Shown here: positions 19,861 to 45,251 of the stretch, one piece after another
How the letters are laid out: each line of letters begins with the position of its first letter
How positions within the stretch are numbered: the first letter of the stretch is position 1
DNA from: a virus
Reading direction: 5' to 3' (one strand)
IMG/VR virus record: IMGVR_UViG_3300032229_000588
Span: 1 to 64,000 of that record
Length of the DNA: 64,000 nt
Position numbers and translations under genes: made by a program
The notes under the pieces: generated by a model
Told to the model about the DNA's origin: nothing
The model's input: only the letters and a program-made list of their open reading frames with translations
Databases searched by the model: none

Positions 19861-22800
19861 TTAAATATTCTCAAACGAAGCTCCTGTTGGAGTGATGAAG
19901 AATTCGATATCGATGAATTCTAACGCCTTCGTAGGTTTTAAGTAGATTTTACCTGTTAATGTATTTCTATCTAAGTCTTCAGGTGAAGATGATACAGTTA
20001 CACGGAAATCGTATAAACCTCTGTCTCTTCTGATTGAATCTAAGATAGGGTTAACACTATCCAAGAATTGTTGTCTAACAATTTGGTCGTTTTGTTCGAA
20101 CAATAATCTTACAGCTACTGCGGAAATCAACTTACGAGCCTGAAGTAATAATCTTCTTACGTTCAATCTGTTAAGTGCTGTGTCAGCAACTTGTAATGTT
20201 TTATTACCCCAAATTACAGTTCCAACATCAGAGAAAGTTGCGATAGGGTTAATTCTACCTTGATACAATGTATCTCTATCTGTTTGTGTAAGTTTTTGTC
20301 TAGCTTTGATTGAATTAACAAGACCTCTTGTGTAACCCGCTGATGCGAACCATGGGAATGAAATGTTATCGGTCAATGCCAAGTTTCTACAAACTTCACC
20401 TGTTGGTGGTAAATAGATTTGTGTGTTATTAACAGTATCACGAACTAAAATCCAAGGATAGTAAGTCGCTGTGTAGTTAGAGTCAATTCCTGTATTATCC
20501 AAGTTGTCAACCGCTTCCTGTGAGTAGATAACATCTAAAGAGTTAGTTGAGTCTGGTGTATACATTCTATAGTCAGGTGTTGTTGCAATATAAACAGAAT
20601 CAGCTCTTGAGTATTGAACCATATCAATTGCTTCCTCAACTAGGTTTGAGTTGTTTACATAGTCAATACTCGCAGTTGCAAATACATTTATATTTGTAGC
20701 TTCAGGGTTTGCAAATGTTAAGATACCAAGTAAGTATGCGTAGTAGTCAGTGTTTGCAAAATCCTGAGTATTGTTTTGAACAACAATTCTCTTAAACATA
20801 CCGTCACCTGTTGCAGTTGGGTATCTTGATGAAGGATATGCTCCAGCCAAATAACCTGATGCCCCTAATTGGAATCTATCTTCGTTAGTTCTCCACTCTC
20901 TGTAGATATCCCAACCATCAAATCCACCTGCAAAACATACTGTATATTTTCTTGAGTAGATGAAGTAGTATGGGTTTTCTTGAGTTTCAGGGTCATTTCT
21001 AAAATCCGCAGTACCACATTCAAATGCTGTTTGTCCACTTGACATTGAAGTATTTGAAATAGTTACAACAGTCGCTCCTGAGTCCATGTGGAAACCTTTA
21101 CTTAATACATTCCATTTAATTGAATCTGTTGCAGTTTCCCAACCTGTTTGTGGGTTTTGTTTTCCTTTATAAGTTAAGAATGATTCATCAATACCATATT
21201 GAGTTGAGAAACCTAAATACGCTCTTCTTACAATATCACCTGGAGACTCAATAGAATTTGAACCTCCTGTTGCAGTACCAAATGGTGGATTAGCAATAAC
21301 TTCACCAGGGTAGTCATATTTTGTTTTGTATTTAGGGTAAGGTGATGGATATACCGCAACATCTTCATATTCTCTTTGTGTATATCCGTAGAATCCACAA
21401 GGAATTGCGTCGATTGGTGCCTCATCCGCCATCTCAACCATTATATACTTTGAAATTAATGCGAATTCACCGTTAGATGAACCTATCTTTTTAGCGATGA
21501 AATTATTTGATGCTGGGTCCAAATTACAATTTGTGAATTTTTCAATTACAACAGGATTAGCATCAGTATCAAAGAAATTTCTAACCAATACATCAAACGA
21601 CATATTGTTAAATGATAAGTTTGCGATTGAAACTTTAATTTCAGTGTTTGCAGAATCACCGTCAGAAATTGAAATAAATTTAAATAAGTTATAAACTTTA
21701 TTACCTCTTAATTCAGAAACTAAGAATGGTGTTTCAGGTGATTGATATTTTTCTAAATTCCATGCGATTGATTGACTTGACTGACTTCTTGCATCAGGTA
21801 GTGCAATTAATTGAGAATTTAAACCTCTGATGTAACCTTGATTATAAGCATAATTTAAACTTCCTTGGTAAACCTCCTCAACAAAAATCGGAACTTCAAA
21901 TCTTGATTTTCCGAAATTATCAACACCTAAAACTTTAGTTAAGTATTTTGACGATGATGCCAACAATGAAGTCTCAAATGAGAATGTGTCATTATCTCTA
22001 GTAATACCTGATAGTAAGAAAGTTGCGAATGGTGAATCTGTAATACCTGAGTATTGACCAGTACTTATAAGTTGTAAATCTGTAAGACCACTTACTTGAT
22101 AAACAGGTCCGTGATTTTCACTTGTTGAACTATTACTATATAATGAAATACCTCTTGAACGAAGTGTTCCAACAACCATGTTATTAAACTCAGTATAAGC
22201 AGTACCTGTGAAAGTATAAGATTCACCTGTAATTACACCTGTAAATACACCTGTTCCACCTGTACTTAAACTACTTACAGAATAATAGAAAGAATAACCT
22301 GTATATGCATTTCCACTTGAGATGTCAAAGTTTGCGTAAAACCATGGGTCATTTGATGAAGATGATAAATCATTATCATTAAATGTGTTAACACAATTGT
22401 ATGGGTCAGTAACCGCATTGTATGTTGCAACTAAAGTATCGTAATCTGCGTTTGGTATTGCACCGTAAACAACTGAAGTAGTTGCCGATAATGATGGTGT
22501 ATCTAATATATTACCTAAAGTCGTATTGAAATCAGATTGTAGTGTAGATGTAGAACCATCACTTAATCTATATTGTGTATTCAAATTTACTTGCACTTGT
22601 GCAGGTAATTGACTAATATTAGTGAATGAGATAGTACTACCTGAAGAATATCCTGTAAATGTGGCACTAAAGGTAGTTGCGTTTGATGGGTTACCAATAG
22701 TCGTTGGGTCAACGTTGGCGATTAAGGATAAACTCCAAGATGGACCCGCATCATAACCCGACAAACCTAATACTCTCGTAACAAACAATTGGTTTGATTG

Positions 22801-23064
22801 TTGCAAGTATGATTTAGCAATGTATGCTGCCTCATATTTTGGGATTTGGGTGTTATAAAATTTAACGGGTTCGGTTCCGCCAAAGTAGGCTTGGAACTCG
22901 TCGTAGTTAGTTATGAATACTGGTTCGAACGCTGGACCTTTTAAAGTCTCACCAACAATACCTAATGTAGTTACCCCAACGCTCTGAGCTACAAATGATA
23001 AGTCGGTTTCAGATGTGTATACGCCTGGTGATACGAATACTTTTTGATTTACTTGTGTTGCCAT
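19861..23064 (-). CDS. 18: Tail sheath protein, T4 gp18-like
   Basis: 1067 residues. The N-terminus VFVSPGVYTSETDLSF and GIVGETLKGPAFEPVFITNY are the standard sheath opening, and the C-terminal domain (RRLLLQARKLISAVAVRLLF, later FRVTVSSSPEDLDRNTLTGK) is the conserved sheath core that forms the contractile mesh. T4 gp18 has 659 residues. The extra length lies mainly in a Ser/Thr/Gly-rich region around residues 110-380, probably surface-exposed insertion domains. Sheath subunits assemble around the gp19 tube and contract to drive the tube into the cell. It is preceded by a TATTTAT element (complement of 23099-23105) and followed by a hairpin. Confidence 0.93.
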   Translation of the reverse strand: MATQVNQKVFVSPGVYTSETDLSFVAQSVGVTTLGIVGETLKGPAFEPVFITNYDEFQAYFGGTEPVKFYNTQIPKYEAAYIAKSYLQQSNQLFVTRVLGLSGYDAGPSWSLSLIANVDPTTIGNPSNATTFSATFTGYSSGSTISFTNISQLPAQVQVNLNTQYRLSDGSTSTLQSDFNTTLGNILDTPSLSATTSVVYGAIPNADYDTLVATYNAVTDPYNCVNTFNDNDLSSSSNDPWFYANFDISSGNAYTGYSFYYSVSSLSTGGTGVFTGVITGESYTFTGTAYTEFNNMVVGTLRSRGISLYSNSSTSENHGPVYQVSGLTDLQLISTGQYSGITDSPFATFLLSGITRDNDTFSFETSLLASSSKYLTKVLGVDNFGKSRFEVPIFVEEVYQGSLNYAYNQGYIRGLNSQLIALPDARSQSSQSIAWNLEKYQSPETPFLVSELRGNKVYNLFKFISISDGDSANTEIKVSIANLSFNNMSFDVLVRNFFDTDANPVVIEKFTNCNLDPASNNFIAKKIGSSNGEFALISKYIMVEMADEAPIDAIPCGFYGYTQREYEDVAVYPSPYPKYKTKYDYPGEVIANPPFGTATGGSNSIESPGDIVRRAYLGFSTQYGIDESFLTYKGKQNPQTGWETATDSIKWNVLSKGFHMDSGATVVTISNTSMSSGQTAFECGTADFRNDPETQENPYYFIYSRKYTVCFAGGFDGWDIYREWRTNEDRFQLGASGYLAGAYPSSRYPTATGDGMFKRIVVQNNTQDFANTDYYAYLLGILTFANPEATNINVFATASIDYVNNSNLVEEAIDMVQYSRADSVYIATTPDYRMYTPDSTNSLDVIYSQEAVDNLDNTGIDSNYTATYYPWILVRDTVNNTQIYLPPTGEVCRNLALTDNISFPWFASAGYTRGLVNSIKARQKLTQTDRDTLYQGRINPIATFSDVGTVIWGNKTLQVADTALNRLNVRRLLLQARKLISAVAVRLLFEQNDQIVRQQFLDSVNPILDSIRRDRGLYDFRVTVSSSPEDLDRNTLTGKIYLKPTKALEFIDIEFFITPTGASFENI

Positions 23065-25379: not shown

Positions 25380-27134
25380 ATGAGTGATGTTAGTTTAGAG
25401 TCAAAAGCGATGACGATACTTGAATCTTATGAAGGATTCAATAACTATATCTTGGAATTAAAACGCAAATCACAAATCAATAAAAAGTTTTATCCGACAC
25501 GAAGTCAATCAGAATACATTATTAATTTCCACGACCAAAAACCAAAGGTTGCTAAGAAGTGGGTTATCCTTGACGCATACTTCGCTCAAAAATTAGCCGA
25601 TGATAAATTGTATACTGAAATACCACAGAAAGTGTGGGTGGAGAAGTTATTGGCGGATAAAGAAAAGGCATATCACATTTGGGGTAGGATTTTAGAAACT
25701 GAAGAATTACACGATTTTTGGTTACCGAAAGCGGCAATCATTAAGGATAATTCAGTCAAAGACGTGGTAATTGATTATTCAAAGTATTCACACCGACCAC
25801 CACTTGAACACCAAAAAGAAGCAATCCAAAAATTAGTTGAGAACAAAAAGTTTATCCTTGCCGATGACATGGGTCTTGGTAAAACAACTTCAACAATTAT
25901 TGCGGCATTAGAATCAGGTTCAAAAAAAGTATTAATTATTTGTCCTGCAACATTAAAGATTAACTGGAAACGTGAGATTGAAAACTATTCAGACAAATCA
26001 ATTTATATCGCTGAAAGTAAAAACTTTAGTACCGAAGCAGATTTTGTAATTATAAACTACGACATAATAAAAAATTTCCATGACACTAAAAAGAAAGATG
26101 ACTCTCAAGTTCTTGCTGCCAATTTTGATTTGGTCATTGTCGATGAAGCACACTATATCAAAAATGCTACGGCTCAAAGAACGAAACTAATTAACGACAT
26201 CGTTAAAAAAACTGAACGACTTTGGTTGTTGACGGGGACACCGATGACATCAAGACCAATAGATTATTTCAACTTATTAAGTATTATTGATTCTCCTGTG
26301 GCAAAGAATTGGATGGCTTACGCAATCCGTTATTGTTCAGGGTACCAATTCAAAGTTGGAAATAGAAAAGTTTGGAACGTAACAGGAGCATCTAACTTGG
26401 AGGAATTAAGAGACCGAACTGTTGGTCTTACATTAAGAAGACTAAAAGAAAACGTACTTGACTTACCTGACAAGATTATCACACCAGTATATTTAAGATT
26501 GAAGTCGAAAGAATATGAAAATGTAATGGGTGAGTATTACGATTGGTACGACAAGAACCCTGAAGAATCAAAATCACTTACAGTTCAGTTCACTAAACTT
26601 ACAAAAGTTCGACAAATCATAGCCGATGAAAAAATTAAGCAAACTATTGAACTCGCTGAAAACATTCTTGAACAAGACAAGAAAGTTATTATTTTCTGTA
26701 ATTTCACTGATTCCTTAAATAAAATTACAGAACACTTTGGTAAGTCGGCAGTTAAACTTGATGGTTCTATGTCAAAACCTGAAAGACAAAACTCAGTTGA
26801 CCAATTCCAAGACAACCCCAAGGTTAAAGTATTTGTGGGTAACATCAAAGCGGCTGGTGTAGGTATTACACTAACCGCAGCTGAAGCTGTTATTATGAAT
26901 GACTTATCATTCCTTCCATCTGACCACGCACAGGCTGAAGACCGAGCTTATCGTTATGGACAAAAAAATAATGTTTTGGTTTATTACCCAATATTCGAAA
27001 ACACAATTGAAGGTATCATCTACGATATCTTAAATAACAAAAAACAAGTTATTGCGACGGTCATGGGAGACAACCAACACCCCGCAGATATGGCAGAAGA
27101 AATACTACAAAGAATCAACGAACTGCGACATTAA
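25380..27134 (+). CDS. SNF2-family DNA translocase/helicase
   Basis: 584 residues with the full SNF2/superfamily 2 set: PPLEHQKEA (Q-like, about 140-148), Walker A ADDMGLGKTT (161-170), Ia ICPATLKINWKRE, DEAH box VIVDEAHYIKN (252-262), motif III LTGTPMTSRP (284-293), and C-terminal helicase motifs (FVGNIKAAGVGITLTAAEA; DHAQAEDRAYRYGQ). The first 130 residues are a distinct region resembling the HARP-like front of SMARCAL1-type annealing helicases. Such enzymes remodel forks, and phage UvsW/RadA-type helicases serve recombination-dependent replication, which is the most likely role. The neighbour downstream contains a nuclease-like domain, so a joint defence or DNA-processing role is an alternative. 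Confidence 0.88.
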   Translation: MSDVSLESKAMTILESYEGFNNYILELKRKSQINKKFYPTRSQSEYIINFHDQKPKVAKKWVILDAYFAQKLADDKLYTEIPQKVWVEKLLADKEKAYHIWGRILETEELHDFWLPKAAIIKDNSVKDVVIDYSKYSHRPPLEHQKEAIQKLVENKKFILADDMGLGKTTSTIIAALESGSKKVLIICPATLKINWKREIENYSDKSIYIAESKNFSTEADFVIINYDIIKNFHDTKKKDDSQVLAANFDLVIVDEAHYIKNATAQRTKLINDIVKKTERLWLLTGTPMTSRPIDYFNLLSIIDSPVAKNWMAYAIRYCSGYQFKVGNRKVWNVTGASNLEELRDRTVGLTLRRLKENVLDLPDKIITPVYLRLKSKEYENVMGEYYDWYDKNPEESKSLTVQFTKLTKVRQIIADEKIKQTIELAENILEQDKKVIIFCNFTDSLNKITEHFGKSAVKLDGSMSKPERQNSVDQFQDNPKVKVFVGNIKAAGVGITLTAAEAVIMNDLSFLPSDHAQAEDRAYRYGQKNNVLVYYPIFENTIEGIIYDILNNKKQVIATVMGDNQHPADMAEEILQRINELRH

Positions 27135-27175: not shown

Positions 27176-28705
27176 ATGAAAAAAACAGAAGCGAAAATCC
27201 AACAACTAGAGTTACAGATACTTGAAAATCACGTAACCAAAGAAAAAGAGTTGTTGATTACAGAAATGAAGAAAATCGGAATAGAAAAACTACCTTATTC
27301 CTACTCAGCCCTCAAACAGTTTATTGACCCTGAAACCATGAGTTTTCACTACAATAAACACTACAAAGGGTATGTCGATAAACTAAACGACGCATTATCA
27401 AAGAAAAAATACGGGGATTTAGATTTAGAAAAAATCATCAAAACAATCAGTCGTTTTGATAAAACAATTCGAAACAACGCAGGTGGAGCATTTAATCACG
27501 CTTTGTTTTGGAACATGTTAACTCCCGAACCCAAAAAACTTACTGGTGAACTTTACAAAAAGATTACAAAACAGTGGGGGACATTTACAAACTTTAAAAA
27601 AGAATTTGAAAAAGTTGCCAAAGAAAGATTTGGTTCAGGTTGGGTGTGGTTAGTTTTGACATCTCGAAACACCTTGAAAATTATGTCGACCCCAAACCAA
27701 GACAATCCATTAATGAATGTGATTGAAGGTGGGGGATTTCCGTTATTAGGTTTGGACCTATGGGAACATGCATACTATTTGAAGTATAGAAACAAAAGAG
27801 ATGAATATATTTTAAACTTTTGGAAAGTTGTGAATTGGGACTTTGTTACTAAAATGTATGAAATGAAAATTGAAACTAAATTATTAGAGTCGACAAAGAT
27901 GAAACAAGTTATTAGTGAAGGTAAATCTGAAATGTGTTCCAAGTCTGAAACAGAATTTTACAGAATGTTATTCAATGTAAACCAAGAAGTTAAATGGACT
28001 TACATGAATGGTATTAATAGAATCCTTAGAGATGCGTTTAGTGAAAACTTTATTGAAAAACCTGACAACAATCAATTATCGGGTGTCTACGATTTAGAAG
28101 GTACTGGTAGGTCGGTGATTAATAAATTGAATACGAATTACACAACGTTCTGTATTTTATTGAGAGATTTGAATCAAGTCATCTCAAAGATTCCAAACAA
28201 ACAACCAATCAGTTTTACAGACAAAACTCCTGCAGAACAAAAGAAAGAAGTCGAAAGATTTATAAGTGCATTGAATTACTTTAAAGATAGAATCTTTGAT
28301 AAAGACAGTTCAACCCTTCACAACATATTAAGAGTCTTAACTGAAAAAGATAAGGCGGGTAGTAAAAGAGAAGAAATCACCGCATCAATTCTTAAAAGAT
28401 TTTTTGGTAAATCCGCCAAAGTTGAATTGGTTGGTGAGTTAGGAAATAAGAAAGACGCAATACAAGGTGTAGATTTAGAAATAATTAAAGACGGTAAGTT
28501 ATATACCGCTCAAGTTAAACCATTCAGAGAAATGAAAGAAACTGAAGATGGGATTTCTTTAGAGGGTACCGCAAGTGTTAAATTATATAAGACGGATTGG
28601 ATGGTATTCCAACGAGGTAAGAACGTTTTAGTGTTCGACCAAAAACCAAAAATAGTTGATGGTAATTTTCTTTTCCCGTCTGACTCACTTTTATATAACA
28701 TATAA
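27176..28705 (+). CDS. Fe/Mn superoxide dismutase fused to PD-(D/E)XK-like nuclease domain
   Basis: 509 residues in two parts. Residues about 35-225 are an iron/manganese superoxide dismutase: KLPYSYSALKQFIDPETMSF leads to metal ligand H58, then H62 and Y66 of the second-shell motif, GGAFNHALFW gives H108, and LGLDLWEHAYYLKYRNK gives D194 and H198. All four metal ligands are present, so catalysis of superoxide dismutation is plausible. After a helical linker, residues about 395-475 read as a PD-(D/E)XK fold: GSKREEITASILKRFF (E399/E400), GVDLEI (D433) and YTAQVK (Q446, K448). I know of no such fusion. The 5' leader has TATTTAT (27147-27153); the following gene is a neck protein. Confidence 0.78.
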   Translation: MKKTEAKIQQLELQILENHVTKEKELLITEMKKIGIEKLPYSYSALKQFIDPETMSFHYNKHYKGYVDKLNDALSKKKYGDLDLEKIIKTISRFDKTIRNNAGGAFNHALFWNMLTPEPKKLTGELYKKITKQWGTFTNFKKEFEKVAKERFGSGWVWLVLTSRNTLKIMSTPNQDNPLMNVIEGGGFPLLGLDLWEHAYYLKYRNKRDEYILNFWKVVNWDFVTKMYEMKIETKLLESTKMKQVISEGKSEMCSKSETEFYRMLFNVNQEVKWTYMNGINRILRDAFSENFIEKPDNNQLSGVYDLEGTGRSVINKLNTNYTTFCILLRDLNQVISKIPNKQPISFTDKTPAEQKKEVERFISALNYFKDRIFDKDSSTLHNILRVLTEKDKAGSKREEITASILKRFFGKSAKVELVGELGNKKDAIQGVDLEIIKDGKLYTAQVKPFREMKETEDGISLEGTASVKLYKTDWMVFQRGKNVLVFDQKPKIVDGNFLFPSDSLLYNI

Positions 28706-28728: not shown

Positions 28729-29850
28729 ATGTCAGTTATACCAGAACCAGAAAGGTCAAAAATTTATACAAGAGTAAAGCATCTCTTGGGAGCTCCATTA
28801 CGTAGTGTTGAAGTCACTGACGAAATGATGGATTCTTTAATGGAATTATCTATTCAGGATTACGAACAGTATATCTTGAATTGGTTGATTGATAGTCAGT
28901 GGGTTAACTTGGTTAATCTTAACATGACTGAGAAATCTGTTGCTCAAGCGTTAATCACAAGAACTATGGACTTTGAACAACAGTTCTCATATTCATATTC
29001 TAAAATTGTTGGTCTTCAGACACAAGGTCCTTGGGTCTTGAAAAAGGACTATATTGTTCTTGAAAGAGACAAACAAAACTATGAAATCCCTGCTGGTCGT
29101 GAAATCAATGAAGTGTTATGGTTTAGTAATCAACCATGGACCGCCTTTGGTATGGGTGGTATTGGTGGATTTGGTGGTGTAGGTCTTGGGGCTAAAGAAG
29201 CAGGATTTGCTCAAATGGGTTATCAAGGTTCTTACTTCATGATGTCAGGTTTTGATTATCTAATCAGAATGCAAGAGGCAAACATCTTAAATAGAATTTT
29301 AGGTGGTTCTTTAACTTATAGAATCACAGCATTACCTGACGGTAAAAAAGATTTACAACTATACAACGCACCTGGTAATAACTTTAACTGGAGTCAGTAT
29401 AGTAATTATGTTGGTAAAGCGGTATGGTATTGGTATTATGATGTAACACCTGATAGTAGAGCAGATTGTTTAAAGAACAATCCTGACGTAATTAAAATGC
29501 CAAACGAAGTTCCTTTAGAAGAAATGACTTGGACTGATTTAAATGTTCCTGCACAACAATGGGTAAGAAGATGGTTTACCGCTTATGTAAAAGAAACATT
29601 AGGTCGTGTTAGAGGAAAATATAGTGGTAATTTAAAAACTCCTGACTCGGAACTACAGATGGATTATACAAGTCTATTGACGGAAGGTAAGGATGAAAAA
29701 ACAAAATTAATTGAAGAACTTACAGGTGCTGAAGGATGGTTAACCAGATTAAGACCTGAAAAAGTTATGGAGAAAGAAGCATTACTTGCTGAAAACTTGA
29801 ATAAACAAATGAAGTTTAGAGCAATGCCTCGTCAAATATACGTAATATAA
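28729..29850 (+). CDS. 13: Neck / head-tail connector protein, gp13-like
   Basis: 373 residues. The opening SKIYTRVKHLLGAPLRSVEV and a WYYDVTPDSRAD region, plus a tryptophan-rich helical C-terminal half (WVRRWFTAYVKETLGRVRGK then KTPDSELQMDYTSLL), agree with the T4 gp13 neck family (309 residues), whose members bind the portal after packaging so that the tail can join. A Gly-rich loop (FGMGGIGGFGGVGLG, about residues 140-155) is an unusual flexible insert. The gene starts only five bases past a TATTTAT element (28718-28724) and lies 23 bases after the SOD-nuclease gene, so the two may be expressed together. Confidence 0.62.
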   Translation: MSVIPEPERSKIYTRVKHLLGAPLRSVEVTDEMMDSLMELSIQDYEQYILNWLIDSQWVNLVNLNMTEKSVAQALITRTMDFEQQFSYSYSKIVGLQTQGPWVLKKDYIVLERDKQNYEIPAGREINEVLWFSNQPWTAFGMGGIGGFGGVGLGAKEAGFAQMGYQGSYFMMSGFDYLIRMQEANILNRILGGSLTYRITALPDGKKDLQLYNAPGNNFNWSQYSNYVGKAVWYWYYDVTPDSRADCLKNNPDVIKMPNEVPLEEMTWTDLNVPAQQWVRRWFTAYVKETLGRVRGKYSGNLKTPDSELQMDYTSLLTEGKDEKTKLIEELTGAEGWLTRLRPEKVMEKEALLAENLNKQMKFRAMPRQIYVI

Positions 29851-29853
29851 TTT

Positions 29854-30189
29854 ATGGCAATTATTAGAACAATACCGTCCACAAGATTAATCAATGGTGA
29901 GATTCTTGAAACATCGGAAATTTCAATCGTATCTGAAAAAGAATACAGAACAAACGGTGAAGCGTGTGTTATTATTAGAAACGTACAAGAATCAACAGTA
30001 ATATTGGATTCAAAAACAACAGACCACGTTGTAGTTAAATCCATGACATTACTAACAATCAAACCAGATATCGGTAAAATTGATGAAGATTACGATGAAA
30101 TCGTTGCGGACAAATATTCTTGTATTGAGTTTAGATTCTGTGCAGGAAATTGGTATATCCTATCATCAGACGGTCTCAAGAATTCCTAA
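29854..30189 (+). CDS. Small beta-rich phage protein
   Basis: 111 residues, unrecognised. It is strongly beta with short alternating hydrophobic strands (EACVIIRNVQESTVILDSKT), and ends in an aromatic motif FRFCAGNWYILSSDGLKNS of the kind that closes small capsid or fibre-decorating domains in other phages. Start is three bases after the neck gene stop, so it is probably co-translated with it. Its final 24 bases overlap the convergent DNA polymerase gene on the other strand, a very tight junction with no terminator between. A virion decoration role is only a guess. Confidence 0.62.
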   Translation: MAIIRTIPSTRLINGEILETSEISIVSEKEYRTNGEACVIIRNVQESTVILDSKTTDHVVVKSMTLLTIKPDIGKIDEDYDEIVADKYSCIEFRFCAGNWYILSSDGLKNS

Positions 30190-32895
30190 TTTTTCTTTCC
30201 AATCTGCTTCAGCAAAATCATACATGTAGTCTGGTTCAAGACCTCGTTTTTCCCAATATTTCAATTCTTGTTCAGTAATATCAAGTACGTCTTCTTGTAG
30301 TCTATCTTGGTCACCTTCACCTAATGGATGTCCATTGATAAGTTCACATTGTGATTTAGTGAAGATACCTCTTTTTTCAGGGTCATTAACAATTAAGTTA
30401 TTTCTTACCTCATCTTGGAATACAACCATTAATGGTTCCATTCTTTTGTTAAATGTGGTAATCGCTCTTGGTACATTGTAATCACCTGTTAAGTTTGGAT
30501 TGTTTTCCAAGATGTCCTTACTCAACATATAACAGTTAATCTGAACACCATCACCTTTTTTCTGAACATCACCATGAGATGCCTTCAAACCATTATTTAC
30601 ATACATGATAACATCCCCAAGATTTACTGCAAGGTTTTCTTGTAGTGCAAGTTCCATGTGAGCCATTCTACTCATACTATTACCCGCCTTAGTTTTTGTG
30701 GTTAATCGTTTCTTATAATCATCAAGAGTCAACTTAACCTTAGCTCGTTGTGCAATCTTACTTAATGGAATTTGTTTGTCAAAAATCTTTTGTAGGTATT
30801 CGTAGTAGTATTCAACAAATGCCTGACCATCACCTTCTAACAACATCTTAATACCTTTGTCCAAGAACTCCTCGATATAGATTGGAAGTTTCTTTGACTT
30901 GATACTGTTACCTGTCAATTTGATTTTACCCTTGGCATCCATAACCGCATAGTTCTTACGAGCCAAGTTAATACATGAAGGCCAAACACCATCCGTATCG
31001 AGTGCCATCTCACCTCTCATGAAGATATCGTTATACTCGGCAACGTCAGCTTCGGGACCATAATATTCTTTACCCTCTTTAACTTTCCAATTCAATCCAC
31101 GACCAACATATACTCTGTCTTTAGCGTCGTCAGGAGTCGAGAAGTTCACACCGTCCGTATCCATTACCAATGGAACATATCCTTTCGTCATAAAGAACTT
31201 AATCATTTGACGAAGGTATTGTCTACCTGTACAAGTAATTTGTTCTCCCATATACATGTCACCCCAAGCAAATACCTGTGGTGCTGACAACGCACCGAAC
31301 ATCGAGTTGATGAAAATCTTAATCGGTAATTGTTTGTTACCGTATGACTCTGATTTCTTACGGTCAGTATCATAGTATTGTTCCGCAAGTTGTTTGTACT
31401 TGATACGAGTATCACGGAAATACTTTAACATTCCTTTCATCGCACCTGTAACATCACACTTAGGGAATACATCATGTACCAACTGAATAGATGGATACAG
31501 AGACGAGAAGTCGAGCTTAAGTACGTTCTTACTATAACCAACCTTAAGTAGTCGTGAAAGACCTCCTACGAAGTCTGTCTTACCCTGTTTAGCGGGGATT
31601 GCAAGTCCGTGTTTGTAAGACCAAGCCAACATCAACATTTTCCATAATGTGGCGGTACCCATGGTTGAAACCCTTTCATATGTTGTTGGAATCATCGCCG
31701 CCAACAAGAACGAACCTTGGTTGAACTCTTGGTCAACCTTTAGGGTTTCATCTAAGTCATCGTCAAGATACATCTCGACAATCTTATCACCTGTAACTTT
31801 TTTGTAGACGTTAGGGAATTTAATATCTAAGTTATCGTATTCAGGATTGTCAGCTTTTTTGTATTTACCGTTCTGAGTATTTAACCAAAACTCTTCTTTG
31901 TTAAGATATAACTTACCGATGTTATCGTGTTCTATATAAACACGACTCGGTGATTCAGCATTGATGTACTTGGTAATGTATTTCAAACCTGCCGCTTTGA
32001 TACTTGAATTGATTGCCTGAGCTCTACGAACTGCGTGGATAATATCAATTACATTATATCCCCAAATTGAAGTTTGAGTATATGTCTCTACCTCGTTGGC
32101 AAGTTTCAACATCCCGTCTTTTCTTGTAAATGAATGTTGGGGGTGTAGAGATTTACAAATCTTTTTTGGGTCAAGTCCCAAGATTTTACAACGTTCAAAT
32201 ATCCAATGCCAGTCAAAGTTCGCCGAGTTATATCCACCAATGATACTTGGTTTTAATTCGTCAATTACTCGGAAGAATTCGATAATCGCATTTCGTTCTT
32301 CAGATTCATCGAAACATTCAATAACTCTGTGGTATCCTTTATTTGTTTTAATTCCAATCATGAATATACGACCGTCCTGTGGTTCAAGAGAGGTCGTCTC
32401 CAAGTCATATACGAGTCGGGTGACTTCATCGTAGTTCTCGAATCCCTTAAATAGTCGTTTTTCTTTTGAGATGAGGTATTGTTCTACAGGTGGGAGGATA
32501 ATAATTTTATCCTTCGTTTTTTCTCCCCATGGGTCACATCCACCTTCTCTAAAGAATTGGATAAGTTCACGATAACCTTTAAGAGATTTAACCATAAAGG
32601 TCATACCCTTTTCTAATCGCTCATCACCATGAGTTTCCAATTTGTCAATCATGATACCATGTTTGGTCATGGCTTCCTTTTGAGCGGCTTTGGAACCACC
32701 GTAAAAGTTGATATTGCGTAAATCACCTACCCAAGCGAATGGGGTAAATGTATCCTTACGGATTTCTTTTCCTTTACCAGGAATTTCTTTTATTTTGTAA
32801 ATGGAGTTGGATGCGTAGTCAAATTCGATTGCTACAATAAATTCTTCAGGGTCATTACCATGTAAGAATGATTCAATTTCTTCGTTAGATATCAT
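30166..32895 (-). CDS. 43: Family B DNA polymerase, T4 gp43-like
   Basis: 909 residues (T4 gp43 has 898). N-terminal 3'-5' exonuclease motifs: Exo I VYDLETTSLE (about 162-171) and Exo II GGYNSANFDWHW (about 219-230). Polymerase motifs: A LKLDFSSLYPSIQL (about 456-469), B KIFINSMFGALSAP (about 520-533) and C VMDTDGVNF (about 577-585). Motif C has DTDG in place of the usual DTDS, which keeps both metal-binding Asp. It is the replicative enzyme of the phage, working with the UvsX, gp32 and helicase genes elsewhere in the window. It lies alone on the minus strand among virion and glycosylation genes, converging with and overlapping its right-hand neighbour by 24 bases. Confidence 0.95.
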   Translation of the reverse strand: MISNEEIESFLHGNDPEEFIVAIEFDYASNSIYKIKEIPGKGKEIRKDTFTPFAWVGDLRNINFYGGSKAAQKEAMTKHGIMIDKLETHGDERLEKGMTFMVKSLKGYRELIQFFREGGCDPWGEKTKDKIIILPPVEQYLISKEKRLFKGFENYDEVTRLVYDLETTSLEPQDGRIFMIGIKTNKGYHRVIECFDESEERNAIIEFFRVIDELKPSIIGGYNSANFDWHWIFERCKILGLDPKKICKSLHPQHSFTRKDGMLKLANEVETYTQTSIWGYNVIDIIHAVRRAQAINSSIKAAGLKYITKYINAESPSRVYIEHDNIGKLYLNKEEFWLNTQNGKYKKADNPEYDNLDIKFPNVYKKVTGDKIVEMYLDDDLDETLKVDQEFNQGSFLLAAMIPTTYERVSTMGTATLWKMLMLAWSYKHGLAIPAKQGKTDFVGGLSRLLKVGYSKNVLKLDFSSLYPSIQLVHDVFPKCDVTGAMKGMLKYFRDTRIKYKQLAEQYYDTDRKKSESYGNKQLPIKIFINSMFGALSAPQVFAWGDMYMGEQITCTGRQYLRQMIKFFMTKGYVPLVMDTDGVNFSTPDDAKDRVYVGRGLNWKVKEGKEYYGPEADVAEYNDIFMRGEMALDTDGVWPSCINLARKNYAVMDAKGKIKLTGNSIKSKKLPIYIEEFLDKGIKMLLEGDGQAFVEYYYEYLQKIFDKQIPLSKIAQRAKVKLTLDDYKKRLTTKTKAGNSMSRMAHMELALQENLAVNLGDVIMYVNNGLKASHGDVQKKGDGVQINCYMLSKDILENNPNLTGDYNVPRAITTFNKRMEPLMVVFQDEVRNNLIVNDPEKRGIFTKSQCELINGHPLGEGDQDRLQEDVLDITEQELKYWEKRGLEPDYMYDFAEADWKEKLGILETV

Positions 32896-33378: not shown

Positions 33379-35055
33379 TTAAGACTCTTTTCTTAAACTT
33401 CTTTCATAATGTTCAAATCTATCGTGTTCTGTTGGTGTCATCAGTAACAATCCAGGGTATAACTCACCTTTCTTAACCAACTGATACATATGACTCATCC
33501 AAGTCTGTTCAAATGGATGACCCCATGTTGTATCTAAAAACATTTTTTGATTTCCTGTTCTTGTAACTATCTGAGGCCAATTACAATAATAAACTTCACC
33601 TGTCACATATGGTATTCCTTGAAACGAATTAATTGAATCGTATACGGCTCTTGGAGCATTTGGGTCCAACCCTTGAACAGGTAATCTATTTTTGCCAGGC
33701 CAAAATTGCTCTCTAACATTTTGAGGTACATTATACCAAGACCATTGGGTTCCGTTGTCACCAAAAAATTCACTGTAATTAAGTTTTAAGAAATCAAAGT
33801 TTTCTTTTTTAACAATCTGTAATGTCTTTGAATATAAATTTGGGACGTATCTGTTAAAACCATTACGACATACCTCACCTTCGTGTGGGTAGAAAAACAT
33901 ATCATCTTCAAAGAACAAATAGAAGTCTAAATCAGTTTCATTTTGAAAATGTTCTGCAATCCATTGACGACCGCCACAAATACCTAAATTATCTTTTTTA
34001 ATATGTTCAAATCCATATTCTTCACATAACTCAGCATAATCGTCAAATGTTGATTTATCACTGGAGTTATCTAATAAAAACTTTTTAGTTTTTAATAAAT
34101 AATCTTTATCATACGCCTCCATTGACTCAATTAGAGTTAAGAATTGTTTTGGACTATTAAAAGTAATAACATATAAACCAACTTTATTCACATCTAAAGA
34201 ATTTGTAGTCCCTCTAATATTTTCTGATTTAGCAACTAAGTTATTGTTTTTTAAATCTTCGAAAAACTTACCAACTAATCCGTTTGGTTCAATTTCAAAA
34301 TAGTTAATTAAATCAGAATGTTTGTAACACATGATACTAAAGATTGATTCTTCAGTTCCCATGTAACCCTCATCTAACGTTGTCTTTAGTAAATTATAAT
34401 ATATTCCATTAATATCCGCAATTGAATGTTTTGGACCACCAAAAAACCCACCACGAGCAACTTTATTTACCTTTGCTCCCGCAAGAGAATTTAATTTATT
34501 ATATTCAAATCCATGAATTTCTCTTTCCGCGTCGTATGGGAAACAAATAAATGAAAACTTTGAAATGTATTTTGATAAATTATTAAAAACTTTATCATGG
34601 GTAAAATAACCTTGGTGAACGGTATTTGTTAATCCTCCATCAATCCAAAACATATATTCAGAATCAAATCTGTCCATAATTTTTGCATCATGTAATAAGA
34701 ATACTTTGGACATTACTAATGGATTATAATTTTCTAATCTACCTTGAGTCGATTCTTTTAACCATCCTGCCAAGTTTTGCCAGTTTTCATCAGTTCTGAT
34801 AGACTGAATCTTATCAAAAAATTCAGAATCAGTGAACCAAGATAATGGTCTTAAAACAAATTGGGTGTTGTCCGAACTACGTCTTTCAAATACAAACTTT
34901 TGAAGTTCTTCATCACCAAAAATTATCATATTCTCCTCACACTTTAAAAGTTGTTCGAACTTATCTAAATAATGTTGGAATGGTCTTGACCATCCTTCTG
35001 ATAATTCACCTCTACCGATGTCCCAAATTCCTGTTACTAATGTTATATTACTCAT
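33379..35055 (-). CDS. Two-domain glycosyltransferase (HtrL/YibB-like plus GT2-like)
   Basis: 558 residues. Residues 1-290 match the HtrL/YibB family: ITLVTGIWDIGRGELSEGW at the start, RPFQHYLDKFEQLLK, then MFWIDGGLTNTV (about 135-146), where WID is the DxD-type nucleotide-sugar site, and a GGFFGGP loop. Residues about 300-558 form a second GT-A domain: VGLYVITFNSPKQFLTLIES opening strand and FFEDDMFFYPHEG (about 380) as acidic metal site. It probably transfers two different sugars. It is the first of four adjacent glycosyltransferase genes in transcription order's downstream end; its start overlaps the neighbour's end by eight bases. Substrates cannot be read from the sequence. Confidence 0.76.
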   Translation of the reverse strand: MSNITLVTGIWDIGRGELSEGWSRPFQHYLDKFEQLLKCEENMIIFGDEELQKFVFERRSSDNTQFVLRPLSWFTDSEFFDKIQSIRTDENWQNLAGWLKESTQGRLENYNPLVMSKVFLLHDAKIMDRFDSEYMFWIDGGLTNTVHQGYFTHDKVFNNLSKYISKFSFICFPYDAEREIHGFEYNKLNSLAGAKVNKVARGGFFGGPKHSIADINGIYYNLLKTTLDEGYMGTEESIFSIMCYKHSDLINYFEIEPNGLVGKFFEDLKNNNLVAKSENIRGTTNSLDVNKVGLYVITFNSPKQFLTLIESMEAYDKDYLLKTKKFLLDNSSDKSTFDDYAELCEEYGFEHIKKDNLGICGGRQWIAEHFQNETDLDFYLFFEDDMFFYPHEGEVCRNGFNRYVPNLYSKTLQIVKKENFDFLKLNYSEFFGDNGTQWSWYNVPQNVREQFWPGKNRLPVQGLDPNAPRAVYDSINSFQGIPYVTGEVYYCNWPQIVTRTGNQKMFLDTTWGHPFEQTWMSHMYQLVKKGELYPGLLLMTPTEHDRFEHYERSLRKES

Positions 35056-35929
35056 AGATTCTGTTAAATTCTTCTAATATTCTAAAAAAGCTTTTATTTA
35101 CTGTGAACATTTCATCCGTCACTCCTGCGGGTGCATTATCTCTACACCACCAAATGTCAAAATGTTTACGTTCAAACAATTCACGATGATTTACATACAT
35201 GAGACTCATAACTTGTTCTTCATGTGGAAGACCCTCATCCTCAGTTAAAATGTCACTAACATATTTCTCAAACAAAGTTACAACCTCATCCCATTTATCT
35301 CTATGACCACCAAACATACCACCAATGATGTGAATACTTCTATCAAACTCTTTATACCATTTTGGGTCAACAGTTCCCGACCAATAGTTTCGGTCGTTCT
35401 CTTTACCAAGAAGTAAAAACTTATCGTTAGTGTCGGTTATCACGTTTTTAAGAAATTCATTATTGAATAGAGTACTTTCATAATATCTCGCTTGAGGATG
35501 TTCTCCAACAAGATATTTGTTTGGTATTAAACCACAATGTGAAAGACCAGCATCAATCCAATAATAGTAGTCGTAAGATTTATCTTCGTTCCACCACCAA
35601 TGGAATTTAGAGTATTGAATCTCAATACATCTATCTCCTTGTTTAATTTGGTCTACATTTTTTCTTAATTTGATTAAATCCCTGAATTTTGTTTCAGAAA
35701 TGTCAAATATTTGAAATTTTAATTTTTCAGGTGAGATTGAGTGTTCGTCGTAAAAGAAAGACTTTAACGATTCGATTTCACGGTCTGATGTATAACATAG
35801 GAAATCTGCGTCGGTCATCTTTAACAATGAAAGAAGACTATATCTGTAATGACCATTTCTACCTACCCTACCACCGAATTCTGTTCCGTGTAAATCACTG
35901 TATATTGATGTGATAAATTTAACTGACAT
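35048..35929 (-). CDS. HtrL/YibB-like glycosyltransferase
   Basis: 293 residues, a single-domain relative of the first half of the gene downstream: opening KFITSIYSDLHGTEFGGRVG, then YYYWIDAGLSHCGLIP (about 121-136) in the place of the WIDGG nucleotide-sugar motif, and IIGGMFGGHRDKW matching its GGFFGGP loop. The family's members add sugars to lipopolysaccharide core. It overlaps both neighbours by several bases (eight with the two-domain gene, 11 with the GT25-like gene), so the group is one translational unit. The pair of similar genes suggests duplication. Confidence 0.72.
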   Translation of the reverse strand: MSVKFITSIYSDLHGTEFGGRVGRNGHYRYSLLSLLKMTDADFLCYTSDREIESLKSFFYDEHSISPEKLKFQIFDISETKFRDLIKLRKNVDQIKQGDRCIEIQYSKFHWWWNEDKSYDYYYWIDAGLSHCGLIPNKYLVGEHPQARYYESTLFNNEFLKNVITDTNDKFLLLGKENDRNYWSGTVDPKWYKEFDRSIHIIGGMFGGHRDKWDEVVTLFEKYVSDILTEDEGLPHEEQVMSLMYVNHRELFERKHFDIWWCRDNAPAGVTDEMFTVNKSFFRILEEFNRIYE

Positions 35930-36653
35930 ATGTAAATTCTTTGTGTTGTTTATTTTTTTTCATTTCATCGGTTAGTGTTCCATGTAAATACTCTGAAGGT
36001 ATCTTACAAGGACTGTATAAATTCCAATTATATGTTTGAGTATAAAAATTATTGTATTGTCCTTGAGACACATCAGACCAACTACTCATTTGAGGAGCAA
36101 TTGGTAAAATTGGACAATAACTTTGTTTTAATGGGAGAATAAATTGATAGATGAAATCATCAATTGCATAATAATTTAAATTTTCAGGAATCTCCATTTT
36201 AAGAACTTCGTCGTATATTGACTCATGATATAATATCATATTTGTTGCAAATATACCCCTTTCGTGTTCTTTTTTTGGAGGTAAGTTTGTTATGTCTAAA
36301 AACAATGGTTGTTCTTCACTACGATTAACAGGTCGATTTAATGTTGGTGCAAAATTAATTATACCGAAATCAAACTCACCAGTTTCAGTTTCAATCTTAT
36401 TAATTAAATCTTTTGAATATGGTAAGAAGGTACAATCATCTTCTATTACCAAAACTGATTTATATCCACGTTCTTTAGCGATTTTAATAATTTCAGTATG
36501 AGACAAAGTACATCCACCATGATGATTTAAATCAACCGCTTTAAACAATTCATAGTCCCAACCCATATAGTCCAATTCTTTTTGGATATGTTCTAATCGG
36601 TCAGGTCGTCTTTCTAAATTAACGACAAACTTAGGTATACTTGTGATATTCAT
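35919..36653 (-). CDS. GT25-family glycosyltransferase
   Basis: 244 residues. GT25 hallmarks are clear: KFVVNLERRPDRLEHIQKEL (9-27), the CTLSHTEIIK motif (about 48-57) and VLVIEDDCTFLP (about 68-79) supplying the acidic metal ligands. GT25 enzymes add galactose or other hexoses to lipooligosaccharide or, in collagen-type systems, to hydroxylysine. It overlaps the next gene downstream by 11 bases and touches the upstream gene by one base. The segment 80-150 is more variable and probably sets acceptor choice. Confidence 0.78.
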   Translation of the reverse strand: MNITSIPKFVVNLERRPDRLEHIQKELDYMGWDYELFKAVDLNHHGGCTLSHTEIIKIAKERGYKSVLVIEDDCTFLPYSKDLINKIETETGEFDFGIINFAPTLNRPVNRSEEQPLFLDITNLPPKKEHERGIFATNMILYHESIYDEVLKMEIPENLNYYAIDDFIYQFILPLKQSYCPILPIAPQMSSWSDVSQGQYNNFYTQTYNWNLYSPCKIPSEYLHGTLTDEMKKNKQHKEFTYVS

Positions 36654-37918
36654 TAACTAACGTGGTTGTGGGTTAATCTACCTGTGATTCTATCACACCA
36701 TCCTTTTGATTCTGAGTGAGGCCATACAACCCAATAAGATGGCATCTCATCTGTTTGGAATTCTCTCCATACTTTACAATATCCATCAGGGTCTCTCATG
36801 AAACCTGCAATTTCATTTTTGTCCGCATCTTTTCTAAATAAAGTTTCATCTTTATCGTTATGGAATGCAACAACCCAAAAATCATAATCTGTTTCAGGAA
36901 CTTGAGAATAACCAATATCAATGCAATGTTTGAACATCATACAGAAACTATCTTTCCATTCTTGTTCGGTTTCAAAATTATATGGGTTTGGTGGATAGTT
37001 TTTATCTAATGTGTGTTTGTCGATTGCTCTTTTTGAAAAAAGGATGCCTGTATATTTTTCATAATCAGTTAAGGTTCTAACAGGACCAAAACCATAAGGA
37101 CCATCATGACCCTCTTGAGTTTCACCATCCATACCAAACAACTTTCTATTTGTTAAATGTGAGTGAGTATTTCGTTGACCCCAAGTTTTGTCATCATCCC
37201 ACTGTTTTGTTCTACCTTTACGAGTGTACTCATGGTAAACAACAGGGATGTGTGGGTGGAATAAATCGTAACCCCAAGTGTAAGCTCTTGCAGCAATTGA
37301 AATCTCTTCTCCGTGGAAATAATATTCAGGGTTGTGTTGAACTTCAGTTGAGAATTGTCCTAATGTAAAACAGAAGTGAGCCGAGTAGAATCTTGCAGTT
37401 ACAGGTTTTGTCATTTCTCTCCAACCTGGAATTGTTTCAGGTAAGAAGAACACCGCACCTTCAGGAATAAAACGGTCAAACACCATTCTCCAAGCGTCTT
37501 GAGCTCTCCCTGCAGGGTCATTTTCGGGGTCAAAAGAAGGAACGTAGCCCGTAAGTAGAGGCTTCTTATACCCGTCCTTCTGTAACCCCTTTATCATTTT
37601 GATAAGGATATCATCCCAATCCTTAACAAATCTCATGTGAGAATCAATTTGTAGTGTGTATGTTTCACCCTTGTAAAGTTGTTGAACTTGATGTCTTGCC
37701 CAACATACACCTTTGGCATCTTGATAAGGAATATCTAAGATTCTAAATCTTTTGTCTTTTCTGTATTCATCTAAGTTATCAAACCCATCTTCGTCGCTAT
37801 ATTGTCTTGCAATACCGATAACAAGGTTATTTGGTTTCTTGGCATTTGCCAACATGTCTTTAATTGTTGGGACCAACTGTGGGTCTCTGTACGATGCGAT
37901 TTGAACGAATATTTTCAT
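36653..37918 (-). CDS. GlcNAc-transferase-like protein (GT60 type)
   Basis: 421 residues from the ATG complementary to 37916-37918. The start MKIFVQIASYRDPQLVPTI is characteristic of the GlcNAc family (Pfam GlcNAc, related to the Skp1 hydroxyproline GlcNAc-transferase), with a long helical stretch after it and YTLQIDSHMRFVKDWD (88-103) as the DxH-type nucleotide-sugar site. Later blocks RFYSAHFCFTLGQFSTEV and HGEEISIAARAYTWGYDLFH also fit. An in-frame ATG 39 bases upstream lies in a terminator hairpin and is rejected. It is the first gene of the leftward glycosyltransferase group, right after the fibre block. Confidence 0.78.
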   Translation of the reverse strand: MKIFVQIASYRDPQLVPTIKDMLANAKKPNNLVIGIARQYSDEDGFDNLDEYRKDKRFRILDIPYQDAKGVCWARHQVQQLYKGETYTLQIDSHMRFVKDWDDILIKMIKGLQKDGYKKPLLTGYVPSFDPENDPAGRAQDAWRMVFDRFIPEGAVFFLPETIPGWREMTKPVTARFYSAHFCFTLGQFSTEVQHNPEYYFHGEEISIAARAYTWGYDLFHPHIPVVYHEYTRKGRTKQWDDDKTWGQRNTHSHLTNRKLFGMDGETQEGHDGPYGFGPVRTLTDYEKYTGILFSKRAIDKHTLDKNYPPNPYNFETEQEWKDSFCMMFKHCIDIGYSQVPETDYDFWVVAFHNDKDETLFRKDADKNEIAGFMRDPDGYCKVWREFQTDEMPSYWVVWPHSESKGWCDRITGRLTHNHVS

Positions 37919-37940
37919 GTAATAATATTTTATACATAAA

Positions 37941-37974
37941 AATAAAAAACCCTCCACGAAGGTGAAGGGTTTTT
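37941..37974 (-). terminator. Terminator closing the tail-fibre block
   Basis: A 9-bp stem with one G-T wobble (37947-37955 with 37964-37972), eight-base loop, then a T-rich tract on the minus strand (complement of 37941-37949). It lies just past the last fibre gene and separates fibre transcription from the glycosyltransferase group. Confidence 0.85.
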
Positions 37975-37995: not shown

Positions 37996-39111
37996 TTAGA
38001 TACATGCGTTAGGGTCAACTCCAGTAACTTCACCCAATCCTCCTGATACTATGAACGCTGCAGTTCCATTAGAGTAGTATCCGTCAATAACAGGTACTGT
38101 TAATGCTGTATCGAAGTATAAGTACTCACCCGCGTTTGGACCAGGTCCTCCTGCTACTGTACCATAGATTGTATTAGGTGCTGAAATAAAGTCAGTACAT
38201 GCATCATTTGCCGTTGCTCCTGTTCCTAAACTATAAGTGTAATAACCAAATGTTGCCGTTGGTGTTGATGTAACTGTTGGTGTTTGTGTTGTAGTTGTTG
38301 TTACTGTTGGAGTTATTGTCGGTGTTAATGTGTTTGTCGGTGTTGGTGTTAAGGTTGTACATAATGAACCAAACCCTGTAGGAACACCAAAGTCATCCAA
38401 TTCAGTAACATAATTACCATTTTTATAGAAACCACTCAAATCAACAGTTGAATTACCTGTTGGTACATTCCAGAATTCAGTAGATAAATCAAATTGTGGG
38501 TTATTACCGTAAATTGTTACTGTTGAGTTATATTGACCACAAGCCTCATCTTGAGTTGTACCAGTATAAACTGTGAAAGCAACTCTAGCAATTGTTGGAG
38601 TTGGTGTCGGTGTTGCCGCTGCAGTTCCTGTTTGTGTATTTGTTGGAGTTATACTTGGTGTTGGAGTTACAGGTGAAGTTCCTGTAGGTGTAGGTGTTGG
38701 AGTTACTGCCGCAGTTCCTGTGTTAGTTGGTGTTGGGGTTACTGCCGCAGTCCCTGTTTGAGTTTGAGTTATTGTTGGTGTTGGTGTTGGAGTATGAGAT
38801 GCGGTAACACTTGGTGTCGGTGTATTAGTTGCAGTAACACTTGGTGTTGGTGTATTAGTTGGTGTAACTGATGGGGTCATTGTAGGTGTTGGACTTGGGT
38901 AAACAGGTGGGAATACACCTTCATTTACCAATACAATACTACTTTGATATAGTTGTGCAATTGAATACGTGTTATTGATTAACCAAATATTTTTGGTTTG
39001 GTTAGGGTACAATTCTACCTGGTATTCCCACATAGAATCATCACATCTTCTATAATTGAAGTTGATTATAGTAGAACCTGTGTTCGTCAAAGTATATTTA
39101 CTACATGCCAT
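37996..39111 (-). CDS. Thr/Pro-rich tail fibre or appendage protein
   Basis: 371 residues in modules. Residues 1-72 are an adaptor-like beta domain ([12 protein letters not shown] then [20 protein letters not shown]), nearly identical to the first 70 residues of the next gene. Residues about 73-170 are a mucin-like Thr/Pro tract (repeats such as [16 protein letters not shown]). Then come two related globular units, one starting VAFTVYTGTTQDEACGQ and one starting YYTYSLGTGATANDACTDF, separated by another Thr/Pro linker; the protein ends in a Cys (NACI). Members of this fibre set probably attach through the N-terminal domain and present different tips. Receptor binding is inferred from position and repeats. 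Confidence 0.7.
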   Translation of the reverse strand: MACSKYTLTNTGSTIINFNYRRCDDSMWEYQVELYPNQTKNIWLINNTYSIAQLYQSSIVLVNEGVFPPVYPSPTPTMTPSVTPTNTPTPSVTATNTPTPSVTASHTPTPTPTITQTQTGTAAVTPTPTNTGTAAVTPTPTPTGTSPVTPTPSITPTNTQTGTAAATPTPTPTIARVAFTVYTGTTQDEACGQYNSTVTIYGNNPQFDLSTEFWNVPTGNSTVDLSGFYKNGNYVTELDDFGVPTGFGSLCTTLTPTPTNTLTPTITPTVTTTTTQTPTVTSTPTATFGYYTYSLGTGATANDACTDFISAPNTIYGTVAGGPGPNAGEYLYFDTALTVPVIDGYYSNGTAAFIVSGGLGEVTGVDPNACI

Positions 39112-39181
39112 CGTTTTGTTTTCTTTTAATATAAATACTTTATACAGGTTAAAGTTTACAACTAATTATTTTATTTTTTAA

Positions 39182-41143: not shown

Positions 41144-41167
41144 CTTAATTTTTTATTGTTAAATATT

Positions 41168-43264: not shown

Positions 43265-43288
43265 AGTTTTTTATTTTATAAATAGTTT

Positions 43289-44665
43289 TTAAAATTCAAG
43301 ATATTCGTTAGTACCAACACTCAAATATTCATCATTACCAATTAAAATTGCATTTATAATAATTGGGTCATTTGTTGGTGTTGGTGTTTGAGTTAATGTT
43401 GGTGTTGGTGTCTGTGTTGCACAAAGTGAACCAAATCCTACAGGATTACCTTGTGAATCAAGTTGTACCACATAACTAACATTTTTATAATATCCCGTCA
43501 TGTTAATAGTTGAATCTCCATTCAATACGTTCCAAAATTTTGTTGATAAATCAAACTGAGTATTATTACCATAAATGGTAGTTGACGGGTTAATTTCATT
43601 ACAAGCGTCGTTTTGTGTAACTCCTGAATAAACCGTAAATGCAATTCTACTATGAGTTGGTGTCGGAGTTGGTGTTAAACCTACAGTTACTGTTGGTGTA
43701 ACAGTTTGAGTAATGGTTGGTGTTGGAGTATTTGATGTTGTAGTTGTTGGTGTTGGAGTGTTGGATGATGTATTAGTCGGTGTTGGAGTATTAGATGCCG
43801 TGTTACTTGGTGTGTTTGTTTGAGTTGGGGTATGACTTGGAGTTACACTTGGTGTTGGAGTATTACTTGCAGTATTGGTTGGAGTTACCGTTGGTGTTGG
43901 TAAAGGACAACCACCTAAATACGTAATTGTTCCGTCTCCATCGGCAATTATAATTTCCTCCGCACAGAATATTAATGTTTGGAATACGTCTAAGAAGAAA
44001 TCAAATACAAATCCGTCACAATCTCTACCAACAAAAGAGGTTTGGTTTGTCACACCACCAAATAATAAGTAAGTTTTACAAATTGAATTAGTGGGTGTTT
44101 GAGTATTAGTTGGTGTGTTAGTTGGAGTTGTTGTGTTAGTCGTAGTGACTGTCGGAGTTGTTGTTGGCGTTGACGTGTTAGTCGGAGTAACTGTTGGCGT
44201 TTCAGTATTGGTTGGAGTGACGGTCGGAGTTGATGTTTCAGACGCAGTAATACTTGGAGTAATTGACGGTGTTGGCGTGTTACTTGCAGTTGCGGTCGGA
44301 GTCAATCCTATGGTTACTGATGGAGTTGGTGTTTGAGTTACAGTTGGAGTTACAGTTGGTGTTTCAGTAGTTGTTGGTGTTGGAGTTAATGTTGAGGTTG
44401 GGGACGGACTTAATCCTGGTGTTAATGTTGGTGTTTGAGTATTTGTTGGTGTAGGACTTGGTGTAGGACCTGGTACATTTACTGAATATGTGTATCCATA
44501 AGTTGGAACATAACAGTTGTAAATACCATAATAATAGTCGGAAATATAATTAAATGGAAATACTTGGGTACCTAAATCAATCGTACCTCCACTATCAGGA
44601 AGATACGTCACTTCTGTGGTCTGACCACTTAAATTATCACTTAAAATTCTTACCCCTATTGCCAT
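43289..44665 (-). CDS. Thr/Pro-rich appendage protein with repeated tip domains
   Basis: 458 residues. The N-terminal 70 residues are a beta domain ([20 protein letters not shown]). Residues about 70-195 and 255-330 are Thr/Pro/Ser mucin-like tracts ([12 protein letters not shown] types), separated by a Cys-bearing unit ([20 protein letters not shown] then [20 protein letters not shown]). Near residue 340 begins [20 protein letters not shown], a close relative of the tip domain in the 371-residue fibre gene, with the same ending FGSLC. The last 35 residues are a distinct beta tail. A TATTTAT element (complement of 44670-44676) lies just before the start. It shows module sharing within the fibre set. 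Confidence 0.7.
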
Positions 44666-45247: not shown

Positions 45248-45251
45248 TTGA

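Follow-up and report, generated by a model that had tools for sequence, protein, structure and literature searches.

A superoxide dismutase joined to a predicted PD-(D/E)XK-like nuclease in a conserved gene of T4-like jumbo phages

Our analysis of the window (the whole stretch of DNA analysed, 64,000 nt from a virus record of 77,456 bases) reveals a gene in which a full Fe/Mn-type superoxide dismutase (SOD) and a predicted PD-(D/E)XK-like nuclease share one reading frame. The fusion is real, and the gene belongs to the core set of a T4-like jumbo phage lineage. Each domain is of a familiar type; what looks new is that a conserved phage gene unites the two. Our preferred, though tentative, explanation is a nuclease that would cut branched DNA during late DNA processing and has an active SOD attached. 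Specifically, the 509-aa protein comprises, in order, an N-terminal helix, the SOD, a linker, a helical middle domain, and the PD-(D/E)XK-like nuclease. The gene, its parts, and its neighbours are located as follows:

25380–27134, + strand: SNF2-type helicase gene, upstream (Pfam PF00176, 3.2e-28; PF00271, 2.8e-19)
27176–28705, + strand: SOD-nuclease gene (509 aa, uninterrupted ORF, ATG start)
27176–27280, + strand: N-terminal helix, residues 1-35, retained by SOD-less relatives and containing [LI]-x-E30
27281–27865, + strand: Fe/Mn-type superoxide dismutase, residues 36-230 (ligands H58, H108, D194, H198)
27866–27934, + strand: linker, residues 231-253, modelled with low confidence; E238 and E248, each in an [LI]-x-E triplet, are conserved
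27935–28309, + strand: helical middle domain, about residues 254-378, delimited from the C-half model
28310–28702, + strand: predicted PD-(D/E)XK-like nuclease domain, about residues 379-509 (E399, D433, Q446, K448; fold match)
28729–29850, + strand: neck / head-tail adaptor-type gene, downstream (phrog_211, 2.9e-10; without a Pfam match)
29854–30189, + strand: 111-aa ORF, function unassigned
30166–32895, − strand: B-family DNA polymerase gene, convergent (Pfam PF00136, 1.7e-13)

Relatives of the C-half occur, among the matches listed, on at least 208 distinct IMG/VR contigs: 187 encode both halves in a single frame, as the window does (a few of them truncated by a contig end), 18 are without SOD, one (L126) has both parts in two frames, and two (L322 and L323) encode remote stand-alone nucleases. 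Because the fused frame is common to 187 of these 208 contigs, an assembly artefact or two genes run together can be ruled out, confirming the SOD-nuclease fusion proposed in a first-pass annotation of this DNA; in close relatives the two halves are one gene, not separate genes. The two pieces of L126 are 97.6% and 99.6% identical to the fused L125, with SOD and nuclease in different frames, and L126 is therefore read as a frameshift. The first 184 loci represent 177 contigs (7 loci are second copies of a contig); later scans contributed a further 31, with 34 loci analysed and the rest lying on contigs already counted. For two of the scans, the relatives used are the best 80 of 432 and the best 80 of 424, and the counts are lower bounds from a non-random sample. 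A third remote stand-alone nuclease is encoded by LR745206, a 634-kb uncultured phage record. LR745206 is the only C-half relative in the phage collection, where 29 matching records each match at most 41% of the protein, in the SOD part only; a scan of viral contigs with the LR745206 protein alone found no relatives. C-half relatives were found neither in plasmids nor, by a short-peptide-pattern scan, which can miss, in bacterial genomes. BFVD contains a relative of 1113 aa (A0A8D9CCA0, E 7.3e-16).

The SOD domain is complete. Pfam Sod_Fe_N matches residues 36-115 (2.9e-22) and Sod_Fe_C residues 123-226 (1.8e-39), both above their cut-offs (79.4 bits versus 27, and 134.3 versus 20.9), and the top PDB sequence match of the protein is named superoxide dismutase (6e-57). 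The four metal ligands H58, H108, D194, and H198, which the first-pass annotation had picked out, do not vary across the unique full-length fused ORFs (104/104, drawn from the first 184 loci and the window, among the matches listed), and the same holds for each of H62, Y66, W156, W158, Q175, E197, and Y201. The invariance of the catalytic and neighbouring residues makes an active enzyme most likely, and the domain is probably dimeric as well. The NCBIfam Mn-SOD model fits better than the Fe-SOD model (4.5e-58 versus 4.3e-49, both below their curated equivalog cut-offs), and the invariant Q175 occupies a position typical of Mn-SODs; the SOD is therefore probably Mn-type. In 11 relatives, identity to the window copy is 70-96% in the SOD part and 37-79% in the nuclease, indicating a slow-evolving SOD part that is more conserved than the nuclease.

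The SOD is a bacterial enzyme set between the N-terminal helix and the nuclease. In a SOD tree, the phage SODs (32 rows) group together, except that one bacterial row on a long branch (L277) is placed among them; this is consistent with a single origin of the phage SODs. The best 80 bacterial SOD relatives are 45-57% identical to the window SOD, and the C-half is absent from their loci. From their titles, 66 of these 80 read as Bacteroidota, which gives a weak hint that Bacteroidota are SOD donor and phage host; the hint is weak because enterobacterial-type SODs in the phage collection also reach 49% identity.

The C-half has no convincing match in Pfam, PHROGs, NCBIfam, PADLOC, or PDB sequences, and in particular matches no resolvase family in Pfam (HMMER may miss remote relatives). 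Weak matches to MC4 (0.039 with the whole protein, 0.02 with the C-half), phrog_8089 (0.13 and 0.07), phrog_21859 (0.15), maf (0.068), and DUF6602 (0.14) were judged chance, as were DUF5636 in one relative (L048; 0.0029, below its cut-off) and other weak matches in relatives. A PDB profile search with the C-half returned a single match, an unrelated phosphatase (E 1.1). PADLOC returned none for the fusion protein and one, also judged chance, for a SOD-less relative (L176, 0.093).

Structure prediction of the C-half suggests the PD-(D/E)XK-like core that the first-pass annotation had suspected. The AlphaFold2 model of residues 236-509 (58 sequences) has a mean pLDDT of 90.4 and a pTM of 0.85. 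Foldseek against PDB ranks I-Ssp6803I highest (E 2.6e-3, prob 1.00); no match reaches E 0.001. VIA-align places Hjc resolvases at the top (2wcw: Z 8.3, rmsd 3.4, 99 aligned residues), followed by a SPARDA complex (7.4), I-Ssp6803I (7.1), and NhoI (6.8), with RecU and EcoRV lower; Z values below 8 may reflect a common arrangement. The fold matches span protein residues ~386 to 509, and a helix and the central sheet of the model match I-Ssp6803I and Hjc; the second core helix of the PD-(D/E)XK fold, expected between the hairpin/active-site strand and the next strand, is not seen in the model. No known relative of the helical middle domain (~254-378) appears among the fold matches. Of the nuclease motif described in the first-pass annotation, most stands: of 118 unique ORFs compared (first 184 loci plus the window, among the matches listed), E399 is present in 118, D433 in 117 with one gap, and Q446 and K448 in 116 each with two gaps. 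The second acidic residue of its "D-x-E-I" element does not hold, E435 being K in 34 of 104 unique fused ORFs. The Q-x-K variant of the PD-(D/E)XK motif occurs in Mrr-type enzymes. For the C-terminal domain, the prediction is a PD-(D/E)XK nuclease akin to both Hjc resolvase and I-Ssp6803I. Because I-Ssp6803I and NhoI fit the model about as well as Hjc, the label "resolvase" depends on genomic context.

The SOD-less relatives separate the two halves of the protein. Among the matches listed, 18 of 206 non-remote relatives are without SOD; they retain the N-terminal helix and the C-half, with nuclease residues and gene neighbours unchanged. Clade A comprises 11 of these contigs and clade B seven. 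In clade B, the chain runs from EMKKIEIEK directly into LKSIISEGKSERCS; in the fused sister L162, EMKKIGIEK is followed by the SOD and then by LKSVISEGKSERCS. Because clade B is nested among fused rows in the tree (starred branches) and its C-part shares about 93% identity with that of L162, it is most simply explained by a clean in-frame loss of the SOD. The position of clade A fits either SOD loss or a SOD never gained; the outgroup, L051, has a very long branch. None of the 18 SOD-less loci has a SOD in its flanking sequence, no SOD is present anywhere in the two SOD-less long contigs (318 and 309 kb; completeness unstated), and exactly one SOD is present in each of eight fused long contigs. 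Judged from these comparisons, the core of the protein is the nuclease, to which the SOD is an optional addition, dispensable for the nuclease since the 18 SOD-less relatives keep nuclease residues and neighbours.

This arrangement argues against a nuclease gated by reactive oxygen species (ROS). The first-pass annotation had offered an oxidative-stress sensor controlling the nuclease, or a ROS-triggered weapon or counter-defence; the one point in favour of such gating is the covalent link between two probably metal-dependent enzymes. Set against it are the nuclease residues and neighbours retained in the 18 SOD-less relatives, the ~93% identity of clade B to its fused sister in the C-part, and the low-confidence linkers that flank the SOD, and we regard redox gating in either form as very improbable. 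The full-length model (pTM 0.59) leaves the relative placement of the domains unfixed. A different role, in which the SOD is mainly a dimerisation scaffold for a dimeric nuclease and its catalysis is incidental, is also improbable, though less so. Fe/Mn SODs and Hjc both act as dimers, and E197 and Y201, residues of interface type, do not vary; however, the active-site residues are likewise invariant, conservation is higher in the SOD than in the nuclease, and SOD-less forms persist. Under the reading that we prefer, a nuclease carrying an active SOD, fusion would provide co-expression and co-localisation, perhaps dimerisation, and no redox gating, because SOD-less versions retain the nuclease.

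The gene neighbourhood bears on what the nuclease may do. The gene order SNF2 helicase, SOD-nuclease gene, neck gene is fixed: among the 184 loci listed, the SNF2 helicase is present in 183, the neck gene in 178, and the polymerase in 161 (loci without a given neighbour may reflect contig ends), and the helicase and neck neighbours are kept in 18 of 18 SOD-less contigs. The longest contigs of the lineage measure 295-318 kb. Six of 10 long contigs have an above-cut-off match to a gp21-type protease, and six of 10 to a gp23-type capsid protein, indicating that the phages are T4-like. Endonuclease VII, the T4 resolvase, is found in none of these 10 long contigs, most of which are fragments and for which there was no T4 control; its absence would fit a branch-cutting role for the nuclease. 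T4 gp4 (head completion) is likewise found in 0/10, a result that is uninformative in having no positive control.

With a Hjc-like fold and a helicase next door, branch cutting before packaging is the most economical guess at the function of the nuclease. The indispensable part would be the C-half, that is, the helical domain and the PD-(D/E)XK-like nuclease of Hjc-type shape, which may cut branched phage DNA late in infection, before or during packaging, together with the SNF2 helicase encoded alongside. The SOD may remove superoxide near the DNA-processing machinery and so protect DNA or the cell during infection. Alternatively, the nuclease might be packaged or expressed against host or rival phage DNA, with the SOD as a separate benefit. 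A homing endonuclease, I-Ssp6803I, is the top Foldseek PDB match, and these phages have other nuclease-like ORFs, but the position of the gene is fixed across the lineage, unlike that of a mobile gene, and the fusion has no match to a defence family in PADLOC; we consider such an anti-competitor role rather improbable.

A further alternative, unlikely in our judgement but the strongest rival to a nuclease for late DNA processing, is a virion polyprotein that enters the prohead and is cut by the gp21-type protease after [LI]-x-E at E30 and at E238 and/or E248, so that a near-exact SOD and the nuclease are released, packaged, and delivered into the host along with the DNA. Conservation of 80% or more is seen for just four [LI]-x-E triplets; three of them flank the SOD, in stretches of low model confidence (E30 in 104/104, E238 in 112/113, and E248 in 113/113), and the fourth lies inside it. 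In addition, the gp21-type protease is present in six of 10 long contigs, INE-A occurs at residue 60 of the capsid protein of G003, and the LR745206 relative begins MKKFTEYIKE, in the style of MKTFKEF of T4 internal protein I (IPI). T4 Alt is cleaved after ITE and LTE, according to the available portion of PMC5694885. Against these points, the motif is short and the argument was made after the fact, the nearby I34, L39, and C254 are equally conserved, residues 221-248 form a low-confidence helix rather than a loop in the full-length model, and the stand-alone relative L323 is without a MKKFTEYIKE-style start. As far as the available portions of PMC3012670 and PMC5694885 describe gp21 processing and the T4 internal head proteins, the style of the Glu-directed cutting motif is alike; unlike in those proteins, the putative sites of the SOD-nuclease lie inside the chain. 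If the polyprotein reading were true, the virion would carry an antioxidant enzyme, with a SOD and a Hjc-like nuclease packaged as one chain.

Recurrent N-terminal sequences occur elsewhere in these phages. A tag like MKKIIKLTESDLxKIVKKVLxEQ is common to unrelated phage proteins, at L226:13361-13852 (record base 73361 on), at 102905, 170758, 186729, and 192274 in G003, and at 35396, 54400, and 143933 in G001; N-terminal versus internal pattern matches number 4 versus 1 in G003 and 3 versus 0 in G001. The tag may serve to target proteins to the head; the linker of the SOD-nuclease resembles it but is shorter. Several neighbours of the stand-alone nuclease in LR745206 (L051) begin M-K/R-x-F...E, like T4 internal proteins. 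In the L051:3770-4525 region the stand-alone nuclease adjoins, by eye, a polymerase-like ORF; the window polymerase matches this region at E 1.1 only.

Comparison with known systems places each half of the protein in familiar company. The SOD is like Fe/Mn SODs (PF00081/PF02777) in its whole domain and all ligands, and unlike them in being fused to a nuclease. The nuclease is like Hjc-type resolvases in predicted fold and in its acidic/QxK residue set, and unlike them in having no sequence-level match and in being preceded by a helical domain and a SOD; it also has Q where Hjc-type enzymes usually have E before K. I-Ssp6803I resembles the C-half in fold, but the phage gene is not intron-borne or mobile and its order is fixed. 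The closest named parallel is A0A6J5L953 in UniProt (501 aa, uncultured Caudovirales phage), named "superoxide dismutase" only, which matches the C-half by Foldseek (E 5.5e-23, 35% identity); name and length alone fit the same fusion. Because A0A6J5L953 matches the C-half by fold, such proteins appear to have been deposited with the nuclease unnamed, and the automatic name "superoxide dismutase" can thus conceal a nuclease.

No SOD-nuclease fusion was found in listings from searches of open-access papers. In the available portion of PMC6802176, SODs of freshwater phages are proposed to protect the host, phage proteins, and DNA, and among the ROS-defence genes described there a nuclease fusion is unmentioned; an active, protective SOD is in line with that proposal. 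Fe/Mn SOD is listed among Microcystis-virus genes in the available portion of PMC12542629. Phage SODs are usually classed as auxiliary metabolic genes, and here one is built into a conserved DNA-processing gene. The lineage is widespread and uncultured, and its natural SOD-less relatives, one very close, offer a ready comparison by which the benefit of the SOD to the phage becomes testable.

Other nuclease-like ORFs were noted in these phages. L365:4473-5549 (+), as also L364, has an extra 358-aa ORF between the SOD-nuclease and neck genes; it begins MKYIFTESQLDILKNKILINED, shows by eye an E...GQD...FQVKPF motif, and has no match in Pfam or PADLOC. The motif GVDxTIDGxNYQIKP marks further ORFs, 345-495 aa long, at L150:458-1939 (−) and in L151, L156, and L172, as well as at L217:8119-9156 (−), and four of them have a cysteine-rich, zinc-ribbon-like N-part. 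By pattern only, these would be other nuclease-like proteins of the lineage.

Elsewhere in the window, positions 33379-37957 (−) and 50682-62997 (+) contain many sugar-related genes, some recognised by eye only, including glycosyltransferases (phrog_24687, phrog_7162), a UDP-glucose dehydrogenase-type gene, and a nucleotide-sugar epimerase gene. Positions 37996-47867 (−) encode four proteins and the end of a fifth with long Pro-Thr repeats, probably tail fibres or adhesins, with weak phrog_15511 matches in four. A 1067-aa tail sheath is encoded at 19861-23064 (−); its similarity to known sheath families is confined to residues 850-1065.
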